Assembly: GCF_000830005.1 (NCBI RefSeq)
Contig: NZ_CP010407.1
Coordinates: forward strand, 2,895,001-2,959,000
DNA: 64,000 bases
Source of the DNA: Streptomyces vietnamensis
Lineage (GTDB): Bacteria > Actinomycetota > Actinomycetes > Streptomycetales > Streptomycetaceae
Direction of reading: 5' to 3'
Positions within the stretch are counted from its first letter, which is position 1. Each line of letters starts with the position of its first letter. Below, piece by piece: positions 22,033 through 37,725 of the stretch. The notes under the pieces are model-generated. The model ran no database searches and was not told where the DNA came from. It worked only from the letters and a program-made list of their open reading frames with translations. The position numbers and the translations under genes were made by a program.

Positions 22033-22077
22033 GGTGTGCCCACCCGTTCCGCCCCGGGCGGAACGCATGCCCACACC
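22033..22077 (-). repeat. Two-stem intergenic element, copy 1 (behind nei)
   Basis: Read on the minus strand, outer arms GGTGTG/CACACC and inner arms CGTTCC/GGAACG flank a conserved asymmetric internal loop (GGCATG opposite GGTGGG) and a GC-rich hairpin loop. Each side contains a direct copy of GTGGGCA. It overlaps the nei stop codon and lies 38 bases beyond the stop of the convergent Eis-like gene. Two more copies occur at 36611 and 37650. The outer arm differs from theirs by a compensated pair (T-A replaced by G-C). It may end both convergent transcripts. Confidence 0.85.
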
Positions 22078-22883
22078 TAGGCCTGGCAGGTCGGGCACCA
22101 GAAGAGGTTGCGGGCTGCCAGGTCCGCCGTGCGGATGTCGGTTCCGCAGATGTGGCACGGCATGTTCGCGCGGCGGTAGACGTAGACCTCGCCGCCGTGG
22201 TCGTCCACGCGGGGCGGGCGGCCCATGGCCTCGGGGGTGTGTTCGGGGCGGACCGTGTCGATGCGGTTCAGGCGGACGCCCTCGCGCATCAGCTCCGCCA
22301 GGTCCTCCCAGATCGCGGTCCACTCCCCCGCCGTCAGGTCCCTGCCCGCGCGGTACGGGTCGATGCCGTGCCGGAAGAGGACCTCGGCGCGGTAGACGTT
22401 GCCGACGCCCGCGACGACCTTCTGGTCCATGAGGAGGGCGGCGATCGTCGTGCGGGACTTCGAGATCCGGCGCCAGGCCCTGTCGGGGTCGTCGGCGGCG
22501 CGGAGCGGGTCGGGGCCCAGGCGGTCGTGTATCGCCCGCTTCTCGGCGTCCGTGATCAGGGCGCAGGTGGTGGGGCCGCGCAGGTCCACGTACGACTCGG
22601 GGTTCGCGAGGCGCAGGCGGACCGTGTCCGTGGGCGGCGGGGCCGGGGCGTCGCCGAAGTTCACCTTGCCGAAGAGGCCCAGGTGGATGTGGATCCATTC
22701 CTCGCCGGGGAAGCCCAGGAAGAGGTGCTTCCCGTGGGCTTCCGTCGTCTCCAGGGTCGCGCCGTCGAGCAGGGCCGCCGAGTCGGCGAACTTGCCCTGG
22801 GGGCTGGAGACGCGCACGGGCCGGCCGCCGAACCGCTCGCGGTGGTCGGCGGCCAGCCGGTGGATGGTGTGCCCCTCGGGCAT
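22077..22883 (-). CDS. Fpg/Nei-family DNA glycosylase (endonuclease VIII-like)
   Basis: These bifunctional enzymes remove oxidised bases and cut at the resulting abasic site, with the N-terminal proline as nucleophile. The 268-residue product begins MPEGHTIHRLA, with Pro after Met and Glu next to it; the HTIHR continuation resembles actinobacterial Nei rather than MutM. The helix-two-turn-helix VAGVGNVYRAE and a C-terminal zinc finger (CHIC...CPTC) are present. It overlaps rpiB by one base (TGATG), so the two are translated in a coupled way. The stop lies inside a repeated intergenic element. Confidence 0.94.
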   Translation of the reverse strand: MPEGHTIHRLAADHRERFGGRPVRVSSPQGKFADSAALLDGATLETTEAHGKHLFLGFPGEEWIHIHLGLFGKVNFGDAPAPPPTDTVRLRLANPESYVDLRGPTTCALITDAEKRAIHDRLGPDPLRAADDPDRAWRRISKSRTTIAALLMDQKVVAGVGNVYRAEVLFRHGIDPYRAGRDLTAGEWTAIWEDLAELMREGVRLNRIDTVRPEHTPEAMGRPPRVDDHGGEVYVYRRANMPCHICGTDIRTADLAARNLFWCPTCQA

Positions 22884-23377
22884 CAGGCGGTCGGCTCCTG
22901 CGGGTGGTGCGCGGGGATCGGGGGGAGCTCGCCGGTGGTCTCGTACTTCGACAGCATGTCGATGCGGCGGGTGTGACGCTCGTCACCCGAGTACGGGGTG
23001 TTCAGGAAGATCTCGACGAACTTGGTCGCCTCTTCCTGGGTGTGCATCCGGCCACCGACGGAGATCACGTTGGCGTTGTTGTGCTCGCGGCCGAGGGCGG
23101 CGGTCTGCTCGCTCCAGGCGAGGGCGGCGCGGACCCCCTTCACCTTGTTCGCGGCGATCTGCTCGCCGTTGCCGGAGCCGCCGATGACGATGCCCAGGCT
23201 GTCCGGGTCCGCGGCCGTCTTCTCGGCGGCGCGCAGGCAGAACGGCGGGTAGTCGTCGAGGGCGTCGTAGATGTGGGGGCCGCAGTCGACGGGCTCGTGG
23301 CCGTGGGCCTTGAGCCACTCGACGAGGTGGTTCTTTAGTTCAAAGCCGGCGTGGTCGGAACCGATATAGACGCGCAT
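22883..23377 (-). CDS. rpiB: Ribose-5-phosphate isomerase B
   Basis: RpiB interconverts ribose 5-phosphate and ribulose 5-phosphate in the pentose phosphate pathway. The 164-residue product starts MRVYIGSDHAGFELK and contains GIVIGGSGNGEQIAANKVKGVRAAL, the active-site and phosphate-binding region of the RpiB/LacAB family. In RpiB the usual active-site Cys (GTGIG region in E. coli) is replaced by GSGNGE, as in actinobacterial enzymes. The C-terminus is about 15 residues longer than E. coli RpiB. It is the first gene of a two-gene unit with nei. Confidence 0.95.
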   Translation of the reverse strand: MRVYIGSDHAGFELKNHLVEWLKAHGHEPVDCGPHIYDALDDYPPFCLRAAEKTAADPDSLGIVIGGSGNGEQIAANKVKGVRAALAWSEQTAALGREHNNANVISVGGRMHTQEEATKFVEIFLNTPYSGDERHTRRIDMLSKYETTGELPPIPAHHPQEPTA

Positions 23378-23573
23378 GATGCCGAGTGTGGCATGTCAGG
23401 GCCCGGGTAGCAGGCAGCGGGGTCGAGAGCTTCACCCGACCTGGTACGGACCTTCGACTCTCGCGAGGTCGCCCGTACGACGATCTGGAATGAGGTCTTC
23501 CGATCATCCCTGTTCACGGGGTTCAATGCTTGGGCTCGCGACCCGAGCACCCCCCACACACGAGGAAGCGTCG

Positions 23574-25028
23574 ATGAACACGCAACCGACCCTGACGAAG
23601 GACGGCCAGGAGACCGGCACCACCGGTGGCTCGCAGTCCTCCGACGGCCTCAAGGCCGGGCTCAAGAACCGCCACCTGTCGATGATCGCGATCGGCGGCG
23701 TCATCGGCGCCGGCCTCTTCGTCGGCTCCGGCTCCGGCATCGCCGCGGCCGGCCCCGCGATCCTCCTCTCGTACGCACTCGTCGGCGCCATGGTCGTCTT
23801 CGTGATGCGGATGCTGGGCGAGATGGCCGCCGCCCGGCCGTCCTCCGGCTCCTTCTCCGCCTACGCGGACCGGGCCCTGGGCCGCTGGGCCGGTTTCACC
23901 ATCGGCTGGCTGTACTGGTTCTTCTGGGTCGTCGTCCTCGCCGTCGAGGCGACCGCGGGCGCCAAGATCCTGGAGAGCTGGGTCCCGGCCGTGCCGCAGT
24001 GGGGCTGGGCGCTCATCGTGATGGTGGTGCTGACCGCGACCAACCTGGGCTCCGTCGCCTCGTACGGCGAGTTCGAGTTCTGGTTCGCCGGCATCAAGGT
24101 CGTCGCCATCGGCGCCTTCGTCGTCATCGGTCTGCTCGCCGTCTTCGGCGTGCTGCCGGGCTCGGACAACCCGGGCGCCGGATTCGCGCACCTCACCGAC
24201 AGCGGGGGCTTCTTCCCGATGGGGGCGGGCGCGGTCCTCACCGGTGTGCTGATGGTCGTCTTCTCGTTCATGGGCAGCGAGATCGTCACGCTCGCGGCCG
24301 GTGAGTCCGAGGACCCGCAGAAGGCGGTCACCAAGGCCACCAACAGCGTGATCTGGCGGATCGGCGTCTTCTACCTGGGCTCGATCCTCGTCGTCCTGAC
24401 GCTGCTGCCGTGGAACGACAAGTCGATCGTCGAGAAGGGCTCGTACGTCGCCGCCCTCGACTCCATCGGCATCCCGCACGCCGGCCAGATCATGAACGTG
24501 ATCGTCCTGACGGCCGTCCTGTCCTGCCTGAACTCGGGCCTCTACACGGCCTCCCGCATGGCCTTCTCGCTCGGGCAGCGCGGTGACGCGCCGAAGGCCT
24601 TCGCGAAGACCAACAAGCGGGGCGTGCCGACGGCCGCGATCCTCGGCTCGGTCGTCTTCGGCTTCGTCGCGGTCTTCTTCAACTACAAGTGGCCCGACAC
24701 CGTCTTCGCCTTCCTGCTGAACTCCTCCGGCGCCGTCGCGCTCTTCGTCTGGCTGGTCATCTGCGTGACCCAGCTGCGGATGCGCGGGATCATCCTGCGT
24801 GAGTCGCCGGAGAAGCTGATCGTGCGGATGTGGCTCTTCCCGTACCTGACGTGGGCGACCATCGCCATGATCATCGGCGTCCTCGGCTACATGGTGATCG
24901 ACGGCGGCAGCAACCGTGAGCAGGTCGTGCTGTCCCTGCTCGTGGCCGCGCTCGTCATGGCGATCGCGCTGGTCCGCCAGCGGCTCGGCAAGAACGTCGC
25001 CCCCGCCGAGGAGCTGGAGCGCGTGTAG
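23574..25028 (+). CDS. Amino-acid permease, APC superfamily (AAT/GABA-permease type), copy 1
   Basis: The 484-residue product has a 30-residue polar N-terminus and 12 predicted membrane helices. The first-helix signature IAIGGVIGAGLFVGSGSGIAAAGP and the GEMAAARPSSGSFSAYADRALG segment match H+-coupled amino-acid permeases such as those for GABA, asparagine or aromatic amino acids. The substrate cannot be read from sequence. The start is set by AGGAAG six bases before the ATG; a longer upstream frame is intergenic. A second, clearly paralogous permease lies 2.5 kb downstream at 27492. A hairpin follows. Confidence 0.93.
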   Translation: MNTQPTLTKDGQETGTTGGSQSSDGLKAGLKNRHLSMIAIGGVIGAGLFVGSGSGIAAAGPAILLSYALVGAMVVFVMRMLGEMAAARPSSGSFSAYADRALGRWAGFTIGWLYWFFWVVVLAVEATAGAKILESWVPAVPQWGWALIVMVVLTATNLGSVASYGEFEFWFAGIKVVAIGAFVVIGLLAVFGVLPGSDNPGAGFAHLTDSGGFFPMGAGAVLTGVLMVVFSFMGSEIVTLAAGESEDPQKAVTKATNSVIWRIGVFYLGSILVVLTLLPWNDKSIVEKGSYVAALDSIGIPHAGQIMNVIVLTAVLSCLNSGLYTASRMAFSLGQRGDAPKAFAKTNKRGVPTAAILGSVVFGFVAVFFNYKWPDTVFAFLLNSSGAVALFVWLVICVTQLRMRGIILRESPEKLIVRMWLFPYLTWATIAMIIGVLGYMVIDGGSNREQVVLSLLVAALVMAIALVRQRLGKNVAPAEELERV

Positions 25029-25052
25029 TCCGCTCGCCCCTCGGGCGTACGA

Positions 25053-25088
25053 AAGGGCCCTGCCGCTCCTCCGAGCGGCAGGGCCCTT
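25053..25088. terminator. Bidirectional hairpin between permease 1 and bioY
   Basis: A perfect 16-bp stem (25053-25068 with 25073-25088) encloses a 4-base CTCC loop between convergent genes. Confidence 0.9.
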
Positions 25089-25106
25089 CGTGTGTCCGTG
25101 GCGGTC

Positions 25107-25700
25107 TCAGCCCTTGCGGCCGACCAGCTTCCAGGCGGCCGGCAGGGCGCCCATGGCGAGCGCGGCCTTGAGGGCGTCGCCGATGAGGAACGGGGTGAGG
25201 CCGGCCGCGACGGCCTGGCCGAGGGTCATGCCGGTGGCGAGGGCCAGGTAGGGCACGCCGACCGCGTAGATGAGCGCGGAGCCGAGCACCATCGCGCCGG
25301 CGGTGCGGAGCACGGAGCGGTCGGCGCCGCGGCGGGCGAGGGCGCCGACGACGGTCGAGGCGAGGAGCATGCCGAGGATGTAGCCGAAGGACGGCATGCC
25401 GTAGCCGGAGGAGGCCTGCGCGAACCACGGGACGCCCGCCATGCCCGCGACCGCGTACAGGGCGAGGGCGAGGAAGCCGCGGCGGGCGCCGAGCGCGGTG
25501 CCGACGAGCAGGGCGGCGAAGGTCTGACCGGAGACCGGGACCGGGGAGCCGGGGACCGGGACTGAGAGCTGCGCGGCGAGGCCGGTGAGGGCGGCGCCGC
25601 CGACGACCAGGGCGATGTCGCGGGCGCGGCTCGCCGGGATCAGGTCGGCGAGGACGGTGCCCGCCCGGAGGGAACGGGCGGGGGCGGCGGCGGTGCTCAT
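25107..25700 (-). CDS. bioY: BioY, biotin ECF transporter substrate-binding subunit
   Basis: BioY binds biotin in the membrane and works alone or with the EcfA-EcfT energising module. The 197-residue product has six predicted helices and the family pattern VPVPGSPVPVSGQTFAALLVGTALG followed by GVPWF and GYILGML. The ATG at 25700 has a GGAG ribosome binding site and is preferred over the longer frame, which contains non-conserved sequence. No ecfA/ecfT genes are adjacent, so it is either solitary or uses a shared module. A structured inverted repeat lies 55 bases upstream. Confidence 0.93.
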   Translation of the reverse strand: MSTAAAPARSLRAGTVLADLIPASRARDIALVVGGAALTGLAAQLSVPVPGSPVPVSGQTFAALLVGTALGARRGFLALALYAVAGMAGVPWFAQASSGYGMPSFGYILGMLLASTVVGALARRGADRSVLRTAGAMVLGSALIYAVGVPYLALATGMTLGQAVAAGLTPFLIGDALKAALAMGALPAAWKLVGRKG

Positions 25701-25754
25701 CGGTACTCCGCGGGGGTGAGGGTGGGAGGGACAGGTTGACGGTATGCCAGGAGT

Positions 25755-25801
25755 GAGCGCTCGATCACCGTCAGCCGCCGACAAAGCGGCGGTCGAGCGC
25801 T
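25755..25801. other. Nested inverted repeat upstream of bioY
   Basis: Outer arms AGCGCTCGA (25756-25764) and TCGAGCGCT (25793-25801) pair perfectly over 9 bp, and an inner hairpin CCGCCG-acaaag-CGGCGG sits at 25775-25792. The element could be an operator or a folded leader RNA for bioY. The rest of 25802-25950 holds no gene that I can support. Confidence 0.55.
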
Positions 25802-25956
25802 TCGTGGAGATCGAACAAAGCCCGCCGATCACACCTCCCGCCACGTGACGCTTGTCACTGGGAACTCGTGCATGGAGGTCCCTTTTGCGCCAGGGGGTGT
25901 CCACTGGAGAGACTGTGGGGTCCCCATAAACCGTCCGTGAATCCGTACTGCTCAAT

Positions 25957-26110
25957 GTCAACTCCTTGGCCGTAGACGACGCAGCCTTTCGACTTGATCG
26001 TCCCCACCAATTCGCGCTCCCGACTGCCCCCTACGGCAGGGCGGTCACGGGTCGCATCCCCCGGATCCGGCTATGCCGGATCCGGGGCGGGACTGTTGAC
26101 GAAGCCCCAC
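25957..26110 (-). ncRNA. Candidate omega (guide) RNA at the 3' end of tnpB
   Basis: TnpB nucleases use an RNA transcribed from the 3' end of their own gene and the element right end, with the guide taken from flanking DNA (established for IS200/IS605). Here a perfect 12-bp hairpin (26059-26070 with 26076-26087) overlaps the tnpB stop, and a small CTGCC/GGCAG hairpin follows at 26024-26039. A GTTGAC possible right end lies at 25957-25962. The guide would then read from 25956 downwards. The limits are inferred, not observed. Confidence 0.35.
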
Positions 26111-27231
26111 GCCAGGGCACCGCGCTTGGCGATGTTGACCCCGGCGACGTGGTCGGCCGGACCAGCGAGCCCGCACCGACGACAGTGGAAGTGATCCCGA
26201 ATGGGCCGGTTGGCGCGCTCGGTGTGACCGCAGCGCGGACAGCGCTGCGAGGTGTGGGCCGGGTCCACCTCGACGAAAGGCACGCCTGCGCGACGCGCCT
26301 TGTACTCCAGGAAGGAGCCGAGCTGACGGAATGGCCAGGACGACAGTGTGGCCCGCTGGTCGCGTCGAACCGTGACCCGTTCGCGGATGCCCGCCAGTTC
26401 TTCGACGGAGATGCCGCGCCCGGTGCGTTGGGCGACGGCCACGATGTCCTTGGAAATGCGGTGGTTGATGTGGGTGGCGTGCCGGGCCTCCCGGCGCGCC
26501 CGCTTCTTGAGTCGCCGCACCGATGACCGGGTGCGCTTGGCCTGCAGTTCGGCCTTCTTGCGGGCCTGCCAGCGCCGGTACCGGTTCAAGCGGCGGCCGC
26601 TGTAGTTGGCGCCGTCGGAGGTGGTGGCGAGGTTGCTGATGCCCCGGTCCACCCCGATGAAGCCCTTCGGGTCGAACACCTCTGGTTCAGGTAGGTCGAT
26701 GGTGGCGACCAGGAACCACTTGCCATCGCGGTGCACCAGATCGGACTCGCCCCTGCGGAAATCGGCCAGTTGCTTGAGCGCGCCCTGCGAGCACACGAAC
26801 CGCAGGCTCTTGACCCGGCCGTCCATCGTCCAGATGGACACGGTCCTCTGAGCGTAGTTCCACGACAAGCACCGGTCGTCGAACGTGTGCGCCGCGTCGG
26901 CTCGGAACACGATCGGCTTGGACTCGGCCTTGCGGCGCCGCTCCGAGCCGTCCTTGCCGAGATTCCCGACCCGTACGTTTGCCCGCAGTGCGGCGTAGGT
27001 GTCCACCACGCGCTTGATCACATGCTGCGCCGCCTGCGCCCCCAACCCGCGCGCCTTGAGCTCCCTGTACCAGACCGACCGCAGGTCCCGCACCGAGCCC
27101 CTGAGCCCGTAGCACTCGAACGACCGCTCCGAGATCCGGTTCGCGCACTGGTTGACCGTGCGCAGGGTGCGCTCAAGAGCCGGTGCCTGCACGGCATCGG
27201 GCATCAGGCGGACCTGCACAACGAGCTTCAT
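26071..27231 (-). CDS. tnpB: TnpB-family RNA-guided nuclease (IS200/IS605 accessory protein)
   Basis: TnpB, the ancestor of Cas12, cuts DNA with an RNA guide and so helps the transposon persist. The 386-residue product begins MKLVVQVRLMPD and has an N-terminal helix-turn-helix/OrfB region, a central beta domain, and a complete RuvC site: Asp195 in IGVDRGIS, Glu277 in ISVEELAG, and Asp360 in PADHVAGVNIA. A zinc ribbon CPRC...CRRC lies at about 331-353. The third RuvC motif reads DHVAGVN rather than the common DxNAAxN. The ATG at 27231 is preferred over an upstream GTG (27240). No tnpA is present. The gene looks intact, so the nuclease may be active. Confidence 0.92.
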   Translation of the reverse strand: MKLVVQVRLMPDAVQAPALERTLRTVNQCANRISERSFECYGLRGSVRDLRSVWYRELKARGLGAQAAQHVIKRVVDTYAALRANVRVGNLGKDGSERRRKAESKPIVFRADAAHTFDDRCLSWNYAQRTVSIWTMDGRVKSLRFVCSQGALKQLADFRRGESDLVHRDGKWFLVATIDLPEPEVFDPKGFIGVDRGISNLATTSDGANYSGRRLNRYRRWQARKKAELQAKRTRSSVRRLKKRARREARHATHINHRISKDIVAVAQRTGRGISVEELAGIRERVTVRRDQRATLSSWPFRQLGSFLEYKARRAGVPFVEVDPAHTSQRCPRCGHTERANRPIRDHFHCRRCGLAGPADHVAGVNIAKRGALAWGFVNSPAPDPA

Positions 27232-27321
27232 GACGACCACCGTAGGACGCCCGGTCCGGCCTGGACTCCGATCCGCCAGAACCGGAAGATACTATGCCCC
27301 TCTTCACACCTGCGTCGTTTC

Positions 27322-27340
27322 CATGCCGAAGTGCGGCATG
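27322..27340. repeat. Hairpin upstream of tnpB (possible left-end recognition structure)
   Basis: CATGCCG and CGGCATG pair over 7 bp with an AAGTG loop. IS200/IS605 left ends carry such subterminal hairpins for TnpA. A separate inverted repeat TTCAC-cttgt-GTGAA at 27379-27393 lies nearer the next permease and could be an operator for it. Confidence 0.45.
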
Positions 27341-27491
27341 ACCTGCTATGCACCCCCTCCACAAATCGAAGCCGAACGTTCACCTTGTGTGAAGATGGTG
27401 ACCGTATAGCGGACTCCGGTTCCCTCTGAGCGGTGCCCCCGCCCAGACTGTGGGCTCCCTCCCCGTCTCAGCTAGTGAACAGGGTTCGCCC

Positions 27492-28904
27492 ATGTCTCGG
27501 ACCACCGCGCCCGCGCCGGCCGACCGCAAGGACGGCGCGACCGCACCTGCCGAGGGCCTCTCGCACGGCCTCAAGCAGCGCCATCTCTCGATGATCGCCC
27601 TCGGCGGCGTCATCGGCGCCGGGCTCTTCGTGGGCTCCGGCGCCGGCATCGCCGCCGCCGGGCCGTCGATCGTCATCGCCTACGCGATCTCCGGCGTCCT
27701 CGTGATGCTCGTGATGCGGATGCTCGGCGAGATGTCGGCCGCGAACCCGGCCTCCGGCTCCTTCTCCGTCCACGCCGAGCGCGCCTTCGGCTCCTGGGCG
27801 GGCTTCACCTCGGGCTGGGCCTTCTGGTTCCTGCTCTGCGTCGCCGTCGGCCTGGAGGGCATCGGTGCCGCGAAGATCATGACCGGCTGGTTCCCCGGCA
27901 GCCCCGAGTGGGCCTGGGTCGCGCTCTTCATGCTGGTCTTCTGCGTCACCAACCTGGCGGCGGTGAAGAACTTCGGCGAGTTCGAGTTCTGGTTCGCGGC
28001 GCTCAAGGTCGGCGCGATCGTCCTCTTCCTCGGCATCGGCGTCCTCGCGATCCTCGGCGTCCTGCCCGGCACGGACGCCCCCGGCACCGCGAACCTCACC
28101 GGCGAGGGCGGCTTCTTCCCGCACGGCACCGAGGGCCTCATCGTGGGCCTGCTGGCCTCCGTCTTCGCGTACGGCGGCCTGGAGACGGTCACCATCGCGG
28201 CGGCCGAGTCGGAGCACCCGGTGCAGGGCGTCGCCAAGGCCGTCCGTACGGCGATGTGGCGGATCGCGCTCTTCTACATCGGCTCCATGGCGGTCATCGT
28301 CACCCTCGTCCCGTGGGGCGACAAGGCGGTCGTCGAGAAGGGCCCGTACGTCGCCGCCCTGGACCACCTGGGCATCCCGGCGGCCGGCCAGATCATGAAC
28401 GTGGTCGTGCTCGTCGCCCTGCTCTCGGCGATGAACGCCAACATCTACGGCGCCTCCCGGATGGCCGGCTCGCTGGTCGCCCGCGGCCAGGGCCCGAAGG
28501 CACTGGGCAAGCTGTACGGCGGGGTTCCCCGTCCGGCCGTGCTCGTCTCCTGCGTCGTCGGCTTCGGCTGCGTCCTGCTGAGCTACTGGTCGCCGGACAA
28601 GGCCTTCATCTGGCTGCTCAACACCATCGGCGCGATCATCCTGGTCGTCTGGTTCTTCATCGCCGCCTCCCAGCTGGTGCTGCGCCGCCGCACCGAGCGC
28701 GAGGCGCCCGAGAAGCTGGTCGTGCGGATGTGGCTCTTCCCGGTGCTGACCTGGGTGGCGCTGGCCGGCATGGCCGCGATCTTCGTCCTGATGGCCCGCG
28801 AGGAGGGCACCCGTGTGCAGCTGTACTACACGGGCGCGCTGACGCTGGTGCTCGCGGTCGTCGGCTTCGTACGCCAGAAGACGGCGGCGGGCCGCGCTTC
28901 CTGA
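27492..28904 (+). CDS. Amino-acid permease, APC superfamily, copy 2
   Basis: The 470-residue product is a close paralogue of the permease at 23574, sharing LSMIALGGVIGAGLFVGSG, RMLGEMSAANPASGSFS, the FGEFEFWFA helix, NxxxYGASRM and EKLVVRMWLFP. It has 12 predicted helices. The ATG at 27492 follows AGGG; an upstream GTG at 27450 would add 14 residues without family support. A TTCAC/GTGAA inverted repeat at 27379-27393 may regulate it. Substrate unknown; paralogy suggests a related but different amino acid. Confidence 0.92.
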   Translation: MSRTTAPAPADRKDGATAPAEGLSHGLKQRHLSMIALGGVIGAGLFVGSGAGIAAAGPSIVIAYAISGVLVMLVMRMLGEMSAANPASGSFSVHAERAFGSWAGFTSGWAFWFLLCVAVGLEGIGAAKIMTGWFPGSPEWAWVALFMLVFCVTNLAAVKNFGEFEFWFAALKVGAIVLFLGIGVLAILGVLPGTDAPGTANLTGEGGFFPHGTEGLIVGLLASVFAYGGLETVTIAAAESEHPVQGVAKAVRTAMWRIALFYIGSMAVIVTLVPWGDKAVVEKGPYVAALDHLGIPAAGQIMNVVVLVALLSAMNANIYGASRMAGSLVARGQGPKALGKLYGGVPRPAVLVSCVVGFGCVLLSYWSPDKAFIWLLNTIGAIILVVWFFIAASQLVLRRRTEREAPEKLVVRMWLFPVLTWVALAGMAAIFVLMAREEGTRVQLYYTGALTLVLAVVGFVRQKTAAGRAS

Positions 28905-28922
28905 GCTCCCCGCCGCTTCCCC

Positions 28923-28958
28923 CGAAGCCCCCGGACCCCTCTCGGTCCGGGGGCTTCG
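28923..28958 (+). terminator. Hairpin terminator of permease 2
   Basis: A perfect 15-bp stem (28923-28937 with 28944-28958) encloses a 6-base loop, 18 bases after the stop codon. Confidence 0.9.
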
Positions 28959-29038
28959 TCATGCCCGGACCCGGGACCCGGGCGGGTCCTAGGACGAAGG
29001 GCTGATCAACTTGCCCAGCACCTACTGCTAGCCTGCAC

Positions 29039-29055
29039 TTGCATACAGCTTGCAA
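29039..29055 (+). promoter_or_regulatory. Nur-type operator in the sodF promoter
   Basis: TTGCAT-ACAGC-TTGCAA matches the Nur box (tTGCaa-N5-ttGCAA) described for Streptomyces, with one base off in the left half. Nur with nickel represses sodF, so the iron enzyme is made only when nickel is scarce. The site ends 24 bases before the sodF start. Confidence 0.8.
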
Positions 29056-29079
29056 TAAGCCGTCGAAGGGCTCGGGCAC

Positions 29080-29727: not shown

Positions 29728-29831
29728 TCTTCGTCTGAAAAAGGCTCCTGCTCGTGATCGTCTTCTCAACCTTCACCGGGCAGGCGGAAAAGAGGACGGC
29801 CCCCGCGATGACGTGAATCGCGGGGGCCGTC
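29728..29831 (+). ncRNA. Candidate s-SodF small RNA from the sodF 3' UTR
   Basis: In Streptomyces coelicolor the sodF 3' UTR is processed to an approximately 90-nt RNA, s-SodF, that blocks production of the nickel enzyme SodN. Here the 3' UTR between the sodF stop and the terminator is about 100 nt, and its sequence is less GC-rich than its surroundings (UGAAAAAGGCUCC and GGAAAAGAGGA segments). The size and place fit. Pairing with sodN cannot be tested because sodN is outside the window. Confidence 0.6.
29795..29831. terminator. Bidirectional hairpin between sodF and the DsbA-like gene
   Basis: A perfect 15-bp stem (29795-29809 with 29817-29831) encloses a 7-base loop between convergent genes. 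For sodF it would form the 3' end of the candidate small RNA. Confidence 0.9.
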
Positions 29832-29846
29832 TGCCGTGCGGGCCTA

Positions 29847-30482: not shown

Positions 30483-30641
30483 GTCACTCCTCGGTAAGGC
30501 CGCGATGAAGGGGTTGCGCCGAAAAGAGGGAACATCCCGGGGGACCGGCCGCATTCCCGCGCGTCGGCATCGCCATGTGCCGCGTGACAGCAGCGCATGG
30601 GAGGATCGGTGCTGTTTCGAACGCGCCACGAAGGAGTGACC

Positions 30642-33188
30642 GTGCCCGGTGAGAATCTGTCCCGCGACGAGGCCCACGAGCGGGCCGCGCTGCTGTCCGT
30701 CGACGGGTACGAGGTCGTCCTCGACCTCAGGTCGGCGGTCGGCGACTCCGACGAGGCGGTGCGCACCTTCCGCTCACAGACGACGATCCGCTTCCGCCGT
30801 ACGGGGGCGGGCGACGCCACCTTCGTGGACCTGATCGCCCCGTCCGTGAACGCGGTCACGCTCAACGGCCGCTCCCTCGACCCGGCGGTCGTCTTCGACG
30901 GCGCGCGGATCGCGCTCGCCGACCTGGCCGACGAGAACGTGCTCGTGGTGGACGCGCAGTGCGCCTACAGCCGCACCGGCGAGGGCATGCACCGCTTCGT
31001 CGACCCGGAGGACGGCGAGGTCTACCTCTACACGCAGTACGAGCCGGCCGACGCCCGCCGGGTGTACGCCAACTTCGAGCAGCCCGACCTCAAGGCCCCG
31101 TACCGCTTCTCGGTGACCGCGCCCGAGGGCTGGACGGTGTGGAGCAACGGCGCCGGGGAGCAGGACGCCGAGGGCGTGTGGCGGTTCGCGGAGACCGCGC
31201 CGATCTCCACGTACATCACGTGCGTCGTGGCCGGCCCGTACCACTACGTCACCGACAGCTACACGCGCGGCGACCTGGAGATCCCGCTCGGCGCGATGTG
31301 CCGGAAGTCGCTCGCGAAGCACTTCGACGCCGACGACGTCTTCCTGATCACCAAGCAGGGCTTCGACTTCTTCCACGACAACTTCGACTACCCGTACCCC
31401 TTCGGGAAGTACGACCAGGCCTTCGTCCCCGAGTACAACCTCGGCGCGATGGAGAACCCGGGCATGGTGACCTTCCGCGAGGAGTACATCTACCGGGGCA
31501 AGGTCACCCAGGCCGCGTACGAGAGCCGGGCCAACGTCATCCTGCACGAGATGGCGCACATGTGGTTCGGCGACCTGGTCACCATGGTGTGGTGGGACGA
31601 CCTGTGGCTGAAGGAGTCCTTCGCGGACTTCATGGGCTCCTTCGCGAACGCCGAGGCCACCCGCTTCACCAACAGCTGGGTGACCTTCGCCAACAACCGC
31701 AAGGCCTGGGCGTACCGTGCCGACCAGCTGCCGTCCACGCACCCGGTCACGGCCGACATCCGTGACCTGGAGGACGCCAAGCTCAACTTCGACGGCATCA
31801 CGTACGCCAAGGGCGCCTCGGTGCTCAAGCAGCTCGTCGCGTACGCCGGGCGGGACGCGTTCCTGGAGGGCGCGCGCCGCTACTTCAAGCGCCACGCCTA
31901 CGGGAACACACGCCTGGCCGACCTCCTCGCGATCCTGGAGGAGACCTCCGGGCGCGACATGAAGGCCTGGGCGAAGTCCTGGCTCCAGACCTCCGGCGTC
32001 AACAGCCTGACCCCGGCCGTCACCTACGACGCGGAGGGCCGGATCACCGAGCTCGCCGTCCTCCAGGAGGGCGACGAGCTGCGTCCCCACCGAGCCGCCG
32101 TCGGCCTCTACCGGCTCTCGGGCGGGGAGCTCGTGCGGTACGCGCGGGCCGAGGCGGACATCACCGGCGTCCGGACCGTCGTCACCGAGCTCGCGGGCGA
32201 GGCCAAGCCCGACCTGGTGCTCGTCAACGACGACGACCTCACCTACTGCAAGATCCGCTTCGACGAGGGCTCGCTCGCGACGCTGCGGGCACACCTCGGC
32301 GACATCACCGACCCGCTGGCCCGCGCCCTGTGCTGGTCGGCGCTGTGGAACCTGACCCGCGACGGGCTCATGCCGGCCCGGGACTTCGTCGCCGTCGCGC
32401 TCGCCTTCGCGGGCCGCGAGACCGACATCGGCGTCCTGCAGATGGTGCACGGCTGGACGAAGTCGGCCGTCACGCTGTACGCGGCTCCCGCGTGGCGCGA
32501 GGAGGGCGGGCGGCTGCTCGCCGAGGGCGGGCTGCGCGAGCTGCGGGTCGCCGAGCCGGGCAGCGAGCACCAGCTGACCTGGGCGCGGTTCTTCGCGGCG
32601 ACCGCGACCACCGACGCCGACTTCCAGCTCCTGGAGGGGCTGCTCGACGGCACGGCGAAGATCGACGGCCTCGACGTCGACCAGGAGCTGCGCTGGGCGC
32701 TGCTCTCCCCGCTGGCCGTGCACGGCCGTGCGGACGAGACCCGGATCGGCGAGGAGCTCGCCCTGGACGACACGGCGTCGGGCAAGCGCCACCAGACCCG
32801 TCTGCTCGCCTCGCGGCCCTCGGCGGCGGTCAAGGCGCAGGCCTGGGCGCAGGTCGTCGAGTCGGACACCCTGTCGAACGCGCTGGTCGAGGCGACCATC
32901 GCGGGCTTCGTCCAGCCCTCGCAGCGCGAGCTGATCGCGCCGTACGCGGAGAAGTACTTCGCGGCGATCGAGCGGCTGTGGGGCGAGCGGTCGATCCAGA
33001 TCGGCATCGACGTGGTCCGGGGCCTGTTCCCGGGGCTCCAGGACCGCCCGGAGACGCTGGCCGCGACGGACGCGTGGCTGTCGGAGCACGAGTCGGCCGC
33101 GCCGGCGCTGCGTCGTCTCGTGCTGGAGGCGCGGGACGACCTGGCGCGGGCGCTGCGGGCGCAGGAGTGCGACGGCCTGGCCTCGTGA
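30642..33188 (+). CDS. pepN: Aminopeptidase N, M1 zinc metallopeptidase (copy 1)
   Basis: M1 aminopeptidases remove N-terminal residues from peptides in the cytoplasm. The 848-residue product has the substrate-binding motif GAMEN (268-272), the zinc site HEMAH (302-306) with the third ligand Glu325 in WLKESFA, and a helical C-terminal ERAP1-like domain. The GTG at 30642 is set by AAGGAG six bases upstream; the longer frame starting at 30597 would add 15 residues. It is paralogous over its whole length to the gene at 44877. The stop is followed by a 137-base gap containing no gene I can support. Confidence 0.95.
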   Translation: MPGENLSRDEAHERAALLSVDGYEVVLDLRSAVGDSDEAVRTFRSQTTIRFRRTGAGDATFVDLIAPSVNAVTLNGRSLDPAVVFDGARIALADLADENVLVVDAQCAYSRTGEGMHRFVDPEDGEVYLYTQYEPADARRVYANFEQPDLKAPYRFSVTAPEGWTVWSNGAGEQDAEGVWRFAETAPISTYITCVVAGPYHYVTDSYTRGDLEIPLGAMCRKSLAKHFDADDVFLITKQGFDFFHDNFDYPYPFGKYDQAFVPEYNLGAMENPGMVTFREEYIYRGKVTQAAYESRANVILHEMAHMWFGDLVTMVWWDDLWLKESFADFMGSFANAEATRFTNSWVTFANNRKAWAYRADQLPSTHPVTADIRDLEDAKLNFDGITYAKGASVLKQLVAYAGRDAFLEGARRYFKRHAYGNTRLADLLAILEETSGRDMKAWAKSWLQTSGVNSLTPAVTYDAEGRITELAVLQEGDELRPHRAAVGLYRLSGGELVRYARAEADITGVRTVVTELAGEAKPDLVLVNDDDLTYCKIRFDEGSLATLRAHLGDITDPLARALCWSALWNLTRDGLMPARDFVAVALAFAGRETDIGVLQMVHGWTKSAVTLYAAPAWREEGGRLLAEGGLRELRVAEPGSEHQLTWARFFAATATTDADFQLLEGLLDGTAKIDGLDVDQELRWALLSPLAVHGRADETRIGEELALDDTASGKRHQTRLLASRPSAAVKAQAWAQVVESDTLSNALVEATIAGFVQPSQRELIAPYAEKYFAAIERLWGERSIQIGIDVVRGLFPGLQDRPETLAATDAWLSEHESAAPALRRLVLEARDDLARALRAQECDGLAS

Positions 33189-33325
33189 GTTCCGGCCGAT
33201 GGGGGCCGCGGACCGTGGCCCCCATCGGCAGTCGAACGTGCGTACTTTAGGGCGAGGTTGTCCCTAAATGTCGACGAGCGTGTAACAGGGGTTAGGGGAG
33301 CCTTCGGGCGCGGAAGACCCCCGGC

Positions 33326-34330
33326 ATGAACCACAACACCCCCATCACCCCCCGCCCCCTCCCCCTCTCCTCCCACACCGGTCGGGAGCAACGGCTCGCG
33401 TCCGCCGACCAGTTGAGGGAGCAGGGCATCCCCGCCGCCGAGGTCGCCGCGCGCTGCCGGCCCGGCGGCTGGCAGCAGCTGCTGCCCGGCGTCTTCCTGC
33501 TCAAGGCCGGGACCCCCACCAGCGAGGACCGGTTGAACGCGGCACTGCTCTACGCCCGCAGGACCGGGGCCGTGCCCTCGCAGGGCCCCGAGCCGATGAT
33601 CACCGGCCTCGCCGCCCTGACCCTGCACCGCTTCTCCTCCGCTCCCCCGCTCACCGCCCTGGAGCGCATCGACGTGCTCGTGCCGCGCACTCGGCGGCTG
33701 CGCTCGACCGGCTGGGTGCGGGTCGTGCGCGCCCCCGAGTCGCCGGAGCCGGTGGAGCTCACCGGCGTCCCCGTCGCCCCGGTCGCCCGCGCCGTCGCCG
33801 ACGCGGTGTCGGGCCTCTCGGACGCGGAGACGGTGCGCCGGCTGCTCACCGAGGCCGTACGCGGCGGGCACTGCGAACCGGGCGTGGTCGTACGGGAGTT
33901 GAGCCGGGCCCGGCTGCTCTCCCGGCCGCACGTGGTGGACGCGGTGGACGCCCTGCTCGCCGAGGGCCGCTCGCTCTCCGAGCAGCGGCTCTACGAGATG
34001 GTGCGGGAGTTCGCGCTGCCGGACCCGCTGTGGAACGTGGACCTGCGACTGCCGGGCGGCCCGCACCTGGGCGGGGTGGACGCCTACTGGCCGGACCAGG
34101 CGGTCGCCGTGGAGCTGGACACCCGGGCGCCCCGGCAGGACGACGACGAGCTGTGGAGCGAGTACACCCGCAAGCGGGAGCACCTGGAGCGGCTCGGCAT
34201 CACGGTCGTCCACCTCACCCCGCGCAAGCTGCGCGAGGCGATGGACCAGCAGGCCACCGTGGTCCGTACGGCCCTGATGGCCGCGCCGGACCGGCAGCCC
34301 GCCGCGTACGTCGTCGTCCTGCCCAGGTGA
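33326..34330 (+). CDS. AbiEi-antitoxin-like / DUF559 nuclease-like protein
   Basis: The 334-residue product has an N-terminal winged-helix-like segment (LASADQLREQGIPAAEVAARCRPGGWQQLLPGVFLL, about 24-60) like the AbiEi antitoxin family, a middle region with ITGLAALTLHRF and VRVVRAP, and a C-terminal segment (about 225-310) resembling DUF559/Vsr-type PD-(D/E)XK folds: GGVDAYWPDQAVAVELD, then REHLERLGITVVHLTPRKL. The usual ExK triad is replaced by ELD, so nuclease activity is doubtful. No toxin gene is next to it. The ribosome binding site is weak. Such solitary proteins are common in actinobacteria; function unknown. Confidence 0.8.
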   Translation: MNHNTPITPRPLPLSSHTGREQRLASADQLREQGIPAAEVAARCRPGGWQQLLPGVFLLKAGTPTSEDRLNAALLYARRTGAVPSQGPEPMITGLAALTLHRFSSAPPLTALERIDVLVPRTRRLRSTGWVRVVRAPESPEPVELTGVPVAPVARAVADAVSGLSDAETVRRLLTEAVRGGHCEPGVVVRELSRARLLSRPHVVDAVDALLAEGRSLSEQRLYEMVREFALPDPLWNVDLRLPGGPHLGGVDAYWPDQAVAVELDTRAPRQDDDELWSEYTRKREHLERLGITVVHLTPRKLREAMDQQATVVRTALMAAPDRQPAAYVVVLPR

Positions 34331-34334
34331 CGGC

Positions 34335-35477
34335 CTACTTCTTCGGGGCGGTCCCGCAGAACTCGGCCTCGATGACCTTCTCGGTGTCGCCCGCCCAGTC
34401 GGCGTTGAAGTTCCCGGCGAGGGAGTGCTCGCCGTCGCGGGTCACGTGGGCCAGCGAGGTGGAGCCGTGGATGCCGCCGCCGTGGCCCCAGACCTCCACT
34501 CCGCAGCTGAGCTTCTGCTTCATGAGCCCGAGACCGTAGCCCACGTTCGGGTACTCGGGGGAGATCTGCACCGTGGTCGTCATCTCCTTCAGACCGCCCT
34601 TCGTGAGGAGCCGGCCCTTGAGCAGGGCCGAGTAGAAGGTCTGCAGGTCGCGGGAGTCGGAGATGATCTCGCCCGCCGCGCCCGCGATGCTCGGGTTGAG
34701 GTCGGAGACCTCGTGGACGGGGGCGTTCACGTCCCGGGAGAGCTTGGAGTACGCCGGGCTGCTGGGCTCCGGCATGGCCGAGCGGGTCCCGGGGACGGTG
34801 GTGGCGCGGAGCTTGAGCGGCTTGATGATCCGGTTCTCGACGGCCTTGCCGTACGGGCGGCCCGTGACCTTCTCGATGACCATGCCGGCGAGGACGAAGT
34901 TGGTGTTGGAGTAGTTCCAGGAGGCGCCGGGCTCGAAGTCGGGCTTGTGGGCCATGGCGACGTCGACCAGCTGCTGCGGGGTCCAGGTGTCGTAGCGGTG
35001 CTCCAGGAAGCCGGGACCGAAGACCCTCTCCTGGAAGGCGGGGTCCTCGGTGTAGCTGTAGATGCCGCTGGTGTGGTTGAGGAGCTGGCGGACGGTGATC
35101 TTCGTACCGTCGTGGCCGTTGCCCCGGACGACTCCGGGGAGCCACTTCTCGACCGGGTCGTCGAGGTCGATGCGGCCCTCCGCCTGGAGCTGGAGGAGGA
35201 CGGTGGCGGTGAAGGTCTTGGTGATGGAGCCGACGCGGTAGCGGTCGTCGCCGTTGCGCTCGCCGGCGGTGCCGGTCCAGCGGTCGCGCCCGTCGCGGGC
35301 CTGGGCGACGGCACCGGGCACGCCGTCGGCGACGGCCGCGTCCAGGGCCTGCTGGGTGGCGGCGTGGTCCTGGTGGCGCACCGGTGCCGCGAGGGCCGGT
35401 GCGGCGAGGGCGGTGGCGGCGACACCCGCCACGAGGGTGGCGGCGACGACGGTACGTGCGGTGCGTGCGGCTGACAT
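34335..35477 (-). CDS. Secreted serine hydrolase, beta-lactamase / D-Ala-D-Ala carboxypeptidase type
   Basis: The 380-residue product has a signal peptide (basic start, AATLVAGVAATALAAPALAAP, cleavage near residue 30) and the class C beta-lactamase/DD-peptidase motifs: SITK with Ser84 and Lys87, YSN with Tyr189, and HGGG in VWGHGGGIHG. This is the Streptomyces R61 DD-carboxypeptidase arrangement. It probably trims peptidoglycan stem peptides or acts as an esterase outside the cell. The ATG at 35477 follows GGGAG. It ends 4 bases from the stop of the convergent AbiEi-like gene. Confidence 0.92.
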   Translation of the reverse strand: MSAARTARTVVAATLVAGVAATALAAPALAAPVRHQDHAATQQALDAAVADGVPGAVAQARDGRDRWTGTAGERNGDDRYRVGSITKTFTATVLLQLQAEGRIDLDDPVEKWLPGVVRGNGHDGTKITVRQLLNHTSGIYSYTEDPAFQERVFGPGFLEHRYDTWTPQQLVDVAMAHKPDFEPGASWNYSNTNFVLAGMVIEKVTGRPYGKAVENRIIKPLKLRATTVPGTRSAMPEPSSPAYSKLSRDVNAPVHEVSDLNPSIAGAAGEIISDSRDLQTFYSALLKGRLLTKGGLKEMTTTVQISPEYPNVGYGLGLMKQKLSCGVEVWGHGGGIHGSTSLAHVTRDGEHSLAGNFNADWAGDTEKVIEAEFCGTAPKK

Positions 35478-35568
35478 GCGGGCTCCCCTGATCGTTGTGG
35501 TGCGGTCGGGGGAAGGGACCCGGGGAGGCGAGCGGGGGTTGATCATGCCTTCGGCGGTTGAGCGTCTT

Positions 35569-36036
35569 TCAGCCGTTCGCCGGATCGGTGAGGCGGGAGC
35601 GGCCGACCGGAGGGCGTTCGCGCCACAGGTCGAGGCCGATGTCGACGAGTTCGACGCGGACGAGGGAGGACACGGAGTCGAGCGGGTGCCAGGCGGCGAG
35701 GTCGGTGGAGCCGTCGGTCTCGTTGCGCAGGGCACCCCCGGTGACCTGGGCCTCGTAGATGATCCGCAGGCCCTGCCAGTCGCCCGGCCCGCCGAGCCGG
35801 CGGAGCCAGGAGCGCCGGATGGAGTCGATGCCGAGGAGGGCGGTGGGCTCGGTCACGTACCCGGTCTCCTCCTCCACCTCGCGGACGACGGTACGGACGG
35901 GCTCCTCGCCGTGGTCCATGCCGCCGCCCGGCAGGGTCCACCGCTTGGTCCCGTCCTTCGCGACCCAGCGGGCGAGGAGTATCTCGTCGCCCCGGACACA
36001 CACGGCGTAGGCCGCCACCCTCAACTCCTGCTGCAT
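35569..36036 (-). CDS. Nudix hydrolase
   Basis: The 155-residue product has a full Nudix box (GGGMDHGEEPVRTVVREVEEETGYV, near residues 38-62; given here only as the motif G-x5-E-x7-REVxEExGY), which binds metal and hydrolyses a nucleoside diphosphate linked to another group. No substrate-specific signature is evident. It starts 9 bases after the HPP gene on the same strand, so the two are probably cotranscribed. Confidence 0.93.
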   Translation of the reverse strand: MQQELRVAAYAVCVRGDEILLARWVAKDGTKRWTLPGGGMDHGEEPVRTVVREVEEETGYVTEPTALLGIDSIRRSWLRRLGGPGDWQGLRIIYEAQVTGGALRNETDGSTDLAAWHPLDSVSSLVRVELVDIGLDLWRERPPVGRSRLTDPANG

Positions 36037-36045
36037 GCCCCGAGG

Positions 36046-36543
36046 TTAGAGCCAGTACGCGGGATACGTCCGCCCCGTGGCACGGGCGGCCGCCGGGCCG
36101 ACGGCGACCAGGAGGAGGGAGGCGAGGGCGAGAAGGCCGAGAAACGACCAGAACGGCGGGGCCTGGAGGGCGACGATGACGGCCGTGGCCGCGGCGGGCG
36201 AGTGCGGGGTACGGGCGAGCATCATCACGCCGAGCGCGAGGCCGCCCGCCACCGCGGCGCCCCACGGGCCCGGCCCGGCCAGGGCGAGCACCGCGAAGCC
36301 GGTGAGGGCGGAGAGCAGTTGGCCGCCGATGACCGAGCGCGGTTGGGAGAGGGGGAGGTCGGGGGCGCCGGCCACCAGGGCCATGCTGGCGGCGAGGGGT
36401 GGGATGAGCAGCGGCTGGTGGAGGACGGTGCCGATGGCTACCAGGAGGAGGAGGGCGGTGACGCTGGCGCCGGCCGAGGTCAGCGCGAGGCCTGGACGAG
36501 GGCGCGGGGGTGCGGCGCGGCGGGGTGGGGCGGTGGTCGTCAA
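36046..36543 (-). CDS. HPP-family integral membrane protein
   Basis: The 165-residue product has four predicted membrane helices and the family-type patterns HQPLLIPPLAASMALV and ARTPHSPAAATAVIVAL. HPP proteins are linked to nitrite or ion transport in plants and cyanobacteria; the bacterial role is unclear. A TTG at 36543 is chosen as start because GGAGG lies five bases before it. The frame is open to a GTG at 36621, but that would begin inside a repeated palindromic element. The leader and ribosome binding site are shared, base for base in part, with the neighbouring PNPOx gene. Confidence 0.75.
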   Translation of the reverse strand: MTTTAPPRRAAPPRPRPGLALTSAGASVTALLLLVAIGTVLHQPLLIPPLAASMALVAGAPDLPLSQPRSVIGGQLLSALTGFAVLALAGPGPWGAAVAGGLALGVMMLARTPHSPAAATAVIVALQAPPFWSFLGLLALASLLLVAVGPAAARATGRTYPAYWL

Positions 36544-36704
36544 CTGGGCCTCCAGGGTGCGGGGTCGGTGGGTGCGGGTCGGGGGCCCTGGGCGCGGGGG
36601 CGCGGTCGTGGTTGTGCCCACCCGTTCCGCCCAGGGGGTCCCCCCGGACGGAGTCCGGGGGAGGAACGATTGCCCACAACCGGGGCGGCGGACGAGCCCA
36701 CAAC
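36544..36704 (-). repeat. Two-stem intergenic element, copy 2, with leader cassette (upstream of HPP gene)
   Basis: The core (36611-36680) has outer arms GTTGTG/CACAAC, inner arms CGTTCC/GGAACG and an extra GC-rich hairpin in the loop, making it 25 bases longer than copies 1 and 3. An additional half element (GTTGTGGGC on the minus strand, 36696-36704) lies just behind the PNPOx stop at 36709. Towards the HPP gene a 23-base block (36557-36579) is identical to one at 37587-37609, followed by GGAGGCCC. Confidence 0.88.
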
Positions 36705-36708
36705 GGGG

Positions 36709-37572
36709 TCAGGGTGTTGGCGGGTTCGCCGGGGAGTATTCCGGGGGTGACCAGCGCAGGGGGCTGCCCGCCGGGGTCTCGATCGTGTGGTCGACGTGGA
36801 AGCGGGTCACTCGGCCCTCGGGGCCGTACTCCGTGTGTGCGCGGCCGCTGAGCTGGAGGGTCAGACCCGTCTCCCAGTCGAGGAAGAGCAGTCCCGCGCG
36901 GCCGTCCTCCTCCAGGTTGCCCAGGGTCAGGAACATCGAGTTGCCCGGGTAGTCGCGCCAGCTGAGCTCCCGGGGCGTGTCGACCCGGACGAAGCCGGGG
37001 TTGCCGCCGCGGTGGCTCGTGTCGACGCCGTCGGGGGCGGCGGTGGCGATGAAGAAGGTGTCCGCCGCCTTTATCCGGCGCGCCTGGTCGGGGGTGAGTT
37101 CCTCGCCGTGGCGTGCGGTGACGGACTCCGGGCCTGCGGGCTCGGAGCCGTACCACTCCCTCTTCTGGAGGTACTTCGGGCAGTTCGAGAAGACCTGCTC
37201 GGCCTCGATCGTGAAGCCGCGGCCGCTGGTCCTCGCCGTGCCGTTGAGGCGCATGCGGCGGCGGGTGCGGGGGTCGAGGGCGATCGTGCCGACGGGGGTG
37301 CCGTCGGGCGTGCCCTCGGGGAGGGCGGCGGCGACCGAGACCGTGTGCGGGCCGGTGGCCCGGACGAAGCCGGGCGCACCGGTCAGCAGGGTGGACCAGA
37401 CGCGGCCCTCGGCGTCCGCCGCGCCGAGCATCAGCATGGGCTGGGCCTCCAGGAAGGCGGCGGCGATGGGGCGGATGCCGTTGGTGATGGAGCGGCCTAC
37501 GTGGGCGGCGAGGTCTTGGACGCCGAGCCGTTCCTGTACGGCAAGGGAGCCGGGGTGGTACGCGGTGTTCAC
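36709..37572 (-). CDS. Pyridoxamine 5'-phosphate oxidase-like flavin-binding protein
   Basis: The 287-residue product fits the larger, two-part PNPOx-like split-barrel family: an N-terminal half with MLMLGAADAEGRVWSTLLTG and a C-terminal half with FFIATAAPDGVDTSHRGGNPGFV and NSMFLTLGNLEEDGRAGLLFLDWE. FNCPKYL-type sequence (VFSNCPKYLQKREW) is typical of this group. It probably binds FMN or F420 and reduces an unknown small molecule. The GTG at 37572 has GGAGG seven bases upstream. Copies of the same intergenic element lie on both sides. Confidence 0.88.
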   Translation of the reverse strand: MNTAYHPGSLAVQERLGVQDLAAHVGRSITNGIRPIAAAFLEAQPMLMLGAADAEGRVWSTLLTGAPGFVRATGPHTVSVAAALPEGTPDGTPVGTIALDPRTRRRMRLNGTARTSGRGFTIEAEQVFSNCPKYLQKREWYGSEPAGPESVTARHGEELTPDQARRIKAADTFFIATAAPDGVDTSHRGGNPGFVRVDTPRELSWRDYPGNSMFLTLGNLEEDGRAGLLFLDWETGLTLQLSGRAHTEYGPEGRVTRFHVDHTIETPAGSPLRWSPPEYSPANPPTP

Positions 37573-37716
37573 GGGGGCCTCCGGGAGTGCGGGGTCGGTG
37601 GGTGCGGGTTCAGGCGCGGAAGCCTCTGGCGCCGGCAAGGGCGCCGTCCGTTGTGCCCACCCGTTCCGCCCCTTGCGGAACGCCTGCCCACAACGGGCGG
37701 GGCACCGGCCCACAAC
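37573..37716 (-). repeat. Two-stem intergenic element, copy 3, with leader cassette (upstream of PNPOx gene)
   Basis: The core (37650-37694, 45 bases) has the same outer arms GTTGTG/CACAAC and inner arms CGTTCCGC/GCGGAACG as the other copies. A further GTTGTGGGC half element lies at 37708-37716, nine bases behind the VOC gene stop. The 23-base identical block at 37587-37609 and GGAGGCCC lead into the PNPOx start. Its layout is the same as copy 2. Confidence 0.88.
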
Positions 37717-37725
37717 CAAGCGCGG

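Follow-up and report, generated by a model that had tools for sequence, protein, structure and literature searches.

Repetitive extragenic palindromic (REP) sequences and the REP-associated tyrosine transposases (RAYTs) are well described in Proteobacteria. Here we describe a family of repeats with REP-like architecture in Streptomycetaceae, starting from a window of 64,000 nucleotides of Streptomyces vietnamensis (the whole stretch of DNA analysed; assembly GCF_000830005.1, contig NZ_CP010407.1, positions 2,895,001 to 2,959,000), in which a two-stem hairpin occurs three times behind genes. The hairpin is found alone or as the inverted ends of a composite of ~205 bp, the latter in S. vietnamensis and no fewer than two further genomes. 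The copies belong to a dispersed family akin to the repeats compared below, and we consider it probable (roughly 0.6) that this family has been spread by a putative agent and is tolerated, or used, in the form of hairpins at gene 3' ends.

As in REP sequences generally, the unit is a short palindrome of high copy number, extragenic in 82 of 85 copies in the S. vietnamensis stretches analysed, and biased to convergent and tandem gaps and to 3' ends. Bacterial interspersed mosaic elements (BIMEs) are bound by gyrase, IHF or Pol I and likewise combine palindromic units of alternating orientation into mosaic composites, although the sequences and units are others. REP doublets, or REPINs (Bertels and Rainey, 2011, PMC3116915), consist of two inverted irregular palindromes and a spacer, fold as one long hairpin and have many extragenic copies, and inverted pairs that fold as one hairpin are present in S. 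vietnamensis and in genomes G406 and G431. Unlike in REPINs, no Y1/RAYT gene was found in the S. vietnamensis genome, the hairpin has the solo form in several other genomes, and the spacer of the ~205-bp composite is itself palindromic.

The GTAG and CGTC REP superfamilies (Di Nocera et al., 2013, PMC3733652) also lie mostly behind genes, between convergent or tandem open reading frames (ORFs), form dimers of opposite units and have some copies in genes of the UvrD/RecBCD type; the CGTC type likewise has no known transposase, and here GACG stands beside the hairpins of one type (R-type, see below). The present family differs in its 44-nt hairpin, whose two helices flank a 6x6 loop, in being found in Streptomycetaceae, and in the absence of a tag on most left and solo hairpins; the text of that article mentions neither Streptomyces nor actinobacteria. 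With the U-poor structured ends, or I-shaped terminators, of high-GC bacteria (PMC8269248) the family shares a GC-rich hairpin close behind stop codons without a U-tract, but here the sequence is conserved and dispersed, the internal loop is nearly fixed, and some copies are located in ORFs. Rickettsial palindromic elements, going by their outline in PMC3733652, are small palindromes inside genes, and all 114 frames of the 19 solo copies in the S. vietnamensis stretches are stop-free; this comparison is one of descriptions, and the present family is mostly intergenic. Overall, the family behaves like REP, REPIN and BIME repeats but not like a RAYT-linked GTAG family.

Copy Number and Composite Architecture

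The S. vietnamensis genome (9.15 Mb, two contigs) contains 218 matches to the 18-base hairpin arm at up to two mismatches, compared with 10 for a reversed-pattern control, and 118 compared with none at one mismatch. Because both arms of one hairpin can match, there are fewer hairpins than arm matches. A covariance model of the 44-nt hairpin, built from 35 hairpins (alignment A1), has at least 150 matches in this genome, which bears out the dispersed structured family that had been proposed from the letters of the window alone (hereafter, the sequence-only reading). The two-stem hairpin that was taken as the unit in that reading is, however, too small. In 61 stretches of this genome (the window and 60 stretches of 20 kb, 1.264 Mb in total; the 60 were picked for holding copies, and the density in them is not the genome average), there are 85 left-type hairpins (GTTGTG and variants), 82 of them intergenic, and 66 of the 85 start a composite, at the other end of which stands, inverted, a hairpin of the second type, or R-type (CGTGTG/CACACG). 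The same stretches hold 65 R-type hairpins, tallying with the 66 composites, of which 60 have a total length of 202–208 bp. Folding of one full composite gave a single long hairpin, at -164 kcal/mol (z -10.9) as RNA and with a z-score of -9.4 as DNA.

The 61 full copies (<215 bp) among the 66 composites have a median identity of 0.893. Within them, linkage between columns decays from a mean r2 of 0.39 at distances below 5 nt to 0.034 at 20–60 nt, where all four gametes are present in 96% of the column pairs. The composites are mosaics, with copies recombining, or variants recurring, on a scale of ~20 nt. Long-range linkage inside the composites, which would be proof of pairing, was not found (best r2 0.21).

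Of the 75 R-type hairpins, 74 have the tetranucleotide GACG (CGTC on the other strand) no more than 8 nt away on one side (e.g., in the composite at 2985–3190 of stretch L039), which is reminiscent of the CGTC REP tag and may point to a link with those repeats. The motif stands beside only 7 of the 76 left hairpins of composites and 11 of the 69 solos, and thus belongs to the R end of the composite rather than to the hairpin.

The loop of some copies carries a nested hairpin insert, which may be oriented either way; examples are window positions 36629–36662 and L034, L042, L178, L180 and L213. A 15-mer of one type of loop insert, GAGCGAAGCCGAGAG, is itself dispersed and occurs in 29 of 61 Streptomyces genomes, with up to 32 copies (none for the control).

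Structure, Covariation and the Internal Loop

The unit is a hairpin of ~44 nt, in which two helices are placed around a 6x6 internal loop, GGCANN/GGTGGG. The sequence-only reading called this loop asymmetric, which is true of its sequence but not of its length. The loop is found in 256 of 264 strand hits collected by inner stem, strict outer stem and 6x6 spacing, an invariance that is only partly unconditioned given that most of this pool was fetched by patterns holding part of the loop. Exceptions include L040 and L091, where the two sides of the loop are now complementary and the hairpin is a near-perfect palindrome, and L299, whose loop is altered. If imperfect palindromes were corrected from a template, loops of asymmetric sequence would be expected to disappear, and the persistence of this one would argue for selection on it. 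The near-invariant loop suggests that a protein could bind the hairpin through it.

The stems do change. Outer stems observed (with their complements) include GTTGTG, GCTGTG, GCTGCG, GGTGTG, CGTGTG, GTTGGG and GCCGTG, in rows that, as in the flank-extension, tag and T-run counts, were required to pair in the outer stem. The compensatory stem changes that had been claimed for the window copies recur on a larger scale in alignment A3, which covers four Streptomycetaceae genera (44 rows, 41 distinct, derived from the 46 rows of A2 by removing L279 and L281, which have the opposite orientation, and trimming L142 by one base). It has 32 cells with two-sided changes, compared with 5.2 in shuffles (0 of 500 as high); 5 of its 14 pairs show two-sided changes (shuffle mean 2.9, 19 of 500 as high), and 14 further pair types are present, compared with 10.6 in shuffles (3 of 500 as high), whereas slid partners give at most 6 two-sided cells. 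A1 has 25 such cells, compared with 6.0 in shuffles; the rows of A1 and A3 came from searches favouring the structure. A compensated T-A to C-G difference is present at one site shared with G200, inside a helicase-nuclease ORF, and the G run of the apical loop is shortened in the G562 copies.

In solo copies, with R-type arms and one chance hit left out, the outer stem reaches into the flanks by 2.02 bp, compared with 1.17 in within-genome shuffles (0 of 5000 as high). One solo with 15 extra pairs lifts this mean, which without it is ~1.8, just above the highest shuffle value of 1.74 (the shuffle still included it).

Location Relative to Genes

In agreement with the bias to gene 3' ends suggested by the three window copies, 33 of the 81 intergenic copies placed in S. 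vietnamensis (of 82) are located in convergent gaps, compared with 14.3 expected by intergenic length (p 1e-6), and only 4 in divergent gaps, compared with 26 expected (p 3e-9); tandem gaps hold 44. The same bias is seen against gap numbers (p 8e-6 for convergent and 3e-4 for divergent gaps). Among solos of other genomes, 43 could be placed, 17 of them in convergent, 23 in tandem and 3 in divergent gaps, with three more inside ORFs. Solos are close behind genes, the nearest 3' end being at most 60 nt away in 14 of 16 cases in S. vietnamensis and in 23 of 40 elsewhere. As RNA, either strand can fold into the hairpin, which suits convergent gaps. A U-tract is absent: when the 8 nt that follow each of 440 hairpin ends (both strands of 220 hairpins) are considered, TTTT is never present and three or more T occur in 5, in line with the remark that there is no T-run and that the element is not a simple terminator.

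The common orientation of the window copies, in contrast, is not a rule. Solos in tandem gaps are oriented 10:2 in S. vietnamensis but 12:11 in other genomes, and full composites 11:22. Thus, of the three properties by which the sequence-only reading proposed to judge copies across genomes, bias to 3' ends and covariation were found, and a constant orientation was not. Strand bias between the chromosome halves is not evident, with the origin assumed to be central.

Three S. vietnamensis copies are inside ORFs, one in a CobB/CobQ-type gene and two in UvrD-helicase/PDDEXK ORFs. The latter are neighbours (L084, 5994–9332 and 10350–13793), presumably an AdnAB-like pair, and carry one hairpin each; the first site is shared with G200. 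The CobB/CobQ-type gene (L041, 9310–10692) holds a hairpin copy, and the same site in G210 has a decayed outer arm.

Distribution Across Genomes and Turnover of Sites

The distribution of the family is patchy. Among 295 Streptomyces genomes, the number of arm matches at one mismatch ranges from 0 to 118; 145 genomes have at least one match (some at control level), 150 have none, and 11, counted by eye, have at least 20. Across 197 genomes sampled from the whole class, none outside Streptomyces has more than two arm matches, as in the control. The covariance model detects the hairpin in 25 of 121 Streptomycetaceae genomes, in 4 of 17 genera, under stricter filters that may miss weak matches. 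In the other genera that were sampled, the hairpin takes the solo form. The S. vietnamensis composite is common to G406 and G431, whereas other sequence follows the hairpin in G280, G367 and G173, and the inverted composite is not present in the copies examined from G280, G367, G284 and G173. The sequence behind the hairpin thus differs by lineage, which suggests separate expansions. In G280, a 5.7-Mb genome (L177–L189), the sequence behind the hairpin has another palindrome, GGGGCGAAGCCCC, in several copies.

Homologous sites are found with and without the element. At the PNPOx locus of the window, arm matches are present in 4 of 52 Streptomyces loci, and among the ten flanks listed some are intact, some decayed and some empty. 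The relatives G200 and G210, 88 and 87% identical to S. vietnamensis at one locus, have 22 and 9 model matches. Two candidates for a clean empty site were rejected. At L036 (9716–9920), where S. vietnamensis has the composite, ~800 bp of additional gene-like sequence is present in G200 and G210, so that this is not a simple insertion; 1 of the 17 relative loci scanned shows an arm there, but several of the loci end before the far side of the spacer. At L308, the 66-bp spacer of S. vietnamensis retains a GTTGCGGGC-like unit, which makes loss as likely as insertion. No match to one full element was found in plasmids and phages at blastn sensitivity; the exact arm pattern is present in 8 stretches of viral contigs.

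Mode of Spread and Possible Function

Under the reading that we favour, the composite would be a non-autonomous element copied by a putative trans-acting enzyme, which may recognise the folded hairpin through its loop, the near-fixed loop being a natural recognition feature. Copies would then be shuffled by gene conversion and would persist behind genes, where they are least harmful. In that position, the transcripts of these copies would probably serve as strand-symmetric hairpins at 3' ends, i.e., as a terminator without a U-tract or as a block to exonucleases. The hairpins may plausibly help to end or protect transcripts, given that many transcript ends in S. clavuligerus, 353 of the 1,427 mapped, are structured but U-poor (PMC8269248). 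More tentatively, and with considerable doubt, we propose an actinobacterial mobile system based on hairpin recognition and independent of RAYT/IS200-type transposases, in which a putative enzyme or host factor would read the GGCANN/GGTGGG loop in a folded strand and copy solos and composites into an intragenomic population homogenised by conversion.

The putative enzyme does not look like a Y1/RAYT transposase. Y1_Tnp (PF01797), the one transposase family searched for, was not found in the S. vietnamensis genome; the search was positive in 5 of 14 control genomes and in only 2 of the 11 genomes with at least 20 arm matches, 8 of the 10 other copy-rich genomes being negative. A RAYT as the mobiliser is therefore unsupported in S. 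vietnamensis. The GTAG-type tag is rare, at 3 of 264 strand hits per end; in the pooled hairpins there are two CTAC and one GTAG among 69 solos and none in 151 others. A recurrent neighbouring gene was also considered as a partner, but the 13 listed clusters (three members or more) among 469 neighbour proteins look, by eye, like common Streptomyces families.

Several observations weigh against the spread of a REP-like family. Apart from the missing Y1_Tnp, no transposase was recognised by eye among those 13 neighbour clusters, and none of the sites, as judged by eye, showed a clean insertion flanked by duplicated target bases; the sites without the element are eroded. Mosaicism could partly reflect recurrent mutation or misalignment, and in A1 the pairs with two-sided changes (3) are no more numerous than in shuffles (2.7). 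Furthermore, of the 19 mappable G200 and G210 sites, 16 hold hairpin arms in S. vietnamensis, one is degenerate and two are without the element; this count leans to shared sites, since most of the S. vietnamensis stretches were picked for holding copies (three sites were unmappable, one match had no locus, and L291 rests on one flank). Many copies therefore look old and vertically inherited, while the S. vietnamensis genome has many more of them than G200 and G210.

This sharing of sites would also be expected of an RNA hairpin useful to the host, acting at 3' ends in both directions to end or protect transcripts, selected at each site and contacted by a host protein at the loop, with dispersal secondary. 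The covariation and the extension of stems into local flanks, the loop that stays near-invariant while stems change, the 3'-end bias, the compensated T-A to C-G difference at a shared site and the U-poor ends of S. clavuligerus (PMC8269248) all fit such an element. We nevertheless find it rather unlikely, given that 150 of 295 Streptomyces genomes are without an arm match at one mismatch and a few have high numbers, that only 4 of 52 PNPOx loci have one, that the composites have ~205 bp of sequence in common, and that three copies are inside ORFs. A miniature inverted-repeat transposable element of a DDE transposon, whose inverted hairpins would be terminal inverted repeats moved by a transposase in trans, would explain full copies that are long inverted repeats of nearly fixed length and without a gene. 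It appears improbable because the hairpin is solo in those other genera from which copies were sampled, inspection by eye of eroded element-free sites revealed no target duplication, and in the S. vietnamensis stretches, in which 65 R-type hairpins compare with 66 composites, no autonomous copy was seen, DDE families lying outside the search.

A further candidate is a GTAG- or CGTC-tagged family moved by a RAYT. The inverted doublets, the irregular hairpins, the 3' and convergent location and the occasional copies in UvrD-type genes are as in the REPs of PMC3733652, to which the GACG beside 74 of 75 R-type hairpins can be added. With the Y1_Tnp results, the rarity of the GTAG-type tag and GACG at so few left and solo hairpins, this origin is largely refuted as far as a RAYT is concerned and is very improbable. 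That the hairpins arise by chance or from GC-rich base composition, or that the motif is a G-quadruplex and not a hairpin, has a negligible probability. Several G runs are conserved and copy 2 of the window on its own folds little better than shuffles, but the reversed-pattern controls, the covariation and the z-scores obtained on folding the composite and copies 1 and 3 speak against this reading, the G run of the apical loop is shortened in copies of G562, and we rejected a G-quadruplex because the stems covary.

A REP-like architecture, location and mosaic evolution in Streptomycetaceae, in genomes in which no RAYT was found, raises the question of what else can spread such repeats. With one loop, covarying stems and genomes that have from none to more than 100 copies, the family is a defined test set, and it bears on transcript ending in GC-rich Streptomyces, in which many mapped ends are without a U-tract. 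Literature searches with sequence words, and with repeat terms combined with Streptomyces, yielded no description of the family among the papers listed; they covered few subscription papers and no preprints, so that an earlier description is possible. A 10-mer is found in one Streptomyces paper, only inside reporter primers.

The Window Copies and Their Surroundings

The features concerned are, by position in the window:

20765..21994, plus strand, GNAT/SCP2-domain gene, convergent on copy 1 (Pfam)
22033..22077, minus strand, copy 1, solo hairpin with outer arms GGTGTG/CACACC and loop GGCATG/GGTGGG, flanked by convergent genes
22077..22883, minus strand, Fpg/Nei-type DNA glycosylase gene, ending at copy 1 (Pfam)
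36570..36610, minus strand, stretch adjoining copy 2, partial match to the composite tail (79.7% over 36570–36638, arm included)
36611..36680, minus strand, copy 2, hairpin with outer arms GTTGTG/CACAAC and a 34-nt loop
36629..36662, minus strand, loop of copy 2, with a nested inverted repeat inside
36696..36704, minus strand, half element GTTGTGGGC, 4 bases behind the stop of the PNPOx-domain gene
36709..37572, minus strand, PNPOx-domain gene, between copies 3 and 2 (Pfam)
37601..37694, minus strand, copy 3 with tail, equal to the left 93 bp of the composite (95.7% identity to a full copy in L062)
37650..37694, minus strand, copy 3, hairpin GTTGTG/CACAAC with loop GGCAGG/GGTGGG
37708..37716, minus strand, half element GTTGTGGGC, 9 bases behind the stop of the VOC gene
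37726..38181, minus strand, VOC/glyoxalase gene, upstream of copy 3 (Pfam)

The three copies, with the arms and loops described in the sequence-only reading, are present at these positions, and the covariance model agrees, recovering all three with E-values of 2e-13 to 1.5e-10 (they are among its 35 training rows). The distances to the stop codons had been given correctly to within one base: the Fpg/Nei stop and copy 1 have a single base in common, and copies 2 and 3 follow their stops at 28 and 31 bases. Genes were called with a purpose-built codon-usage caller, and Pfam supports the names nei, PNPOx and VOC (Fpg/Nei, PNPOx and glyoxalase/VOC). On the gene strand, copy 1 folds with -30.9 kcal/mol (RNA, z -4.2 against shuffles) and copy 3 with -22.2 kcal/mol (z -4.9); copy 2, at -38.8 kcal/mol and z -1.7, is not clearly above shuffles (14 of 200 equal it). 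The loop of other hairpins usually has 7–9 nt.

The half elements behind copies 2 and 3 are real as well. Units similar to GTTGTGGGC or CCCACACGG occur in rows next to many other family copies, and those of the window are probably parts of such arrays. When up to three mismatches are allowed, the window holds 9 matches to the 18-base arm, compared with 1.64 expected from shuffles; six are hairpin arms and one is a half element.

Against Rfam, the hairpin copies have no match in the window at gathering scores, and in the region 36500–37800 the only match has an E-value of 4.7. Elsewhere in the window, a match to the sodF sRNA (RF02790, 86 bits) is located at 29742–29832, and two tRNA matches lie on opposite strands at 18803–18876 and 19010–19080.

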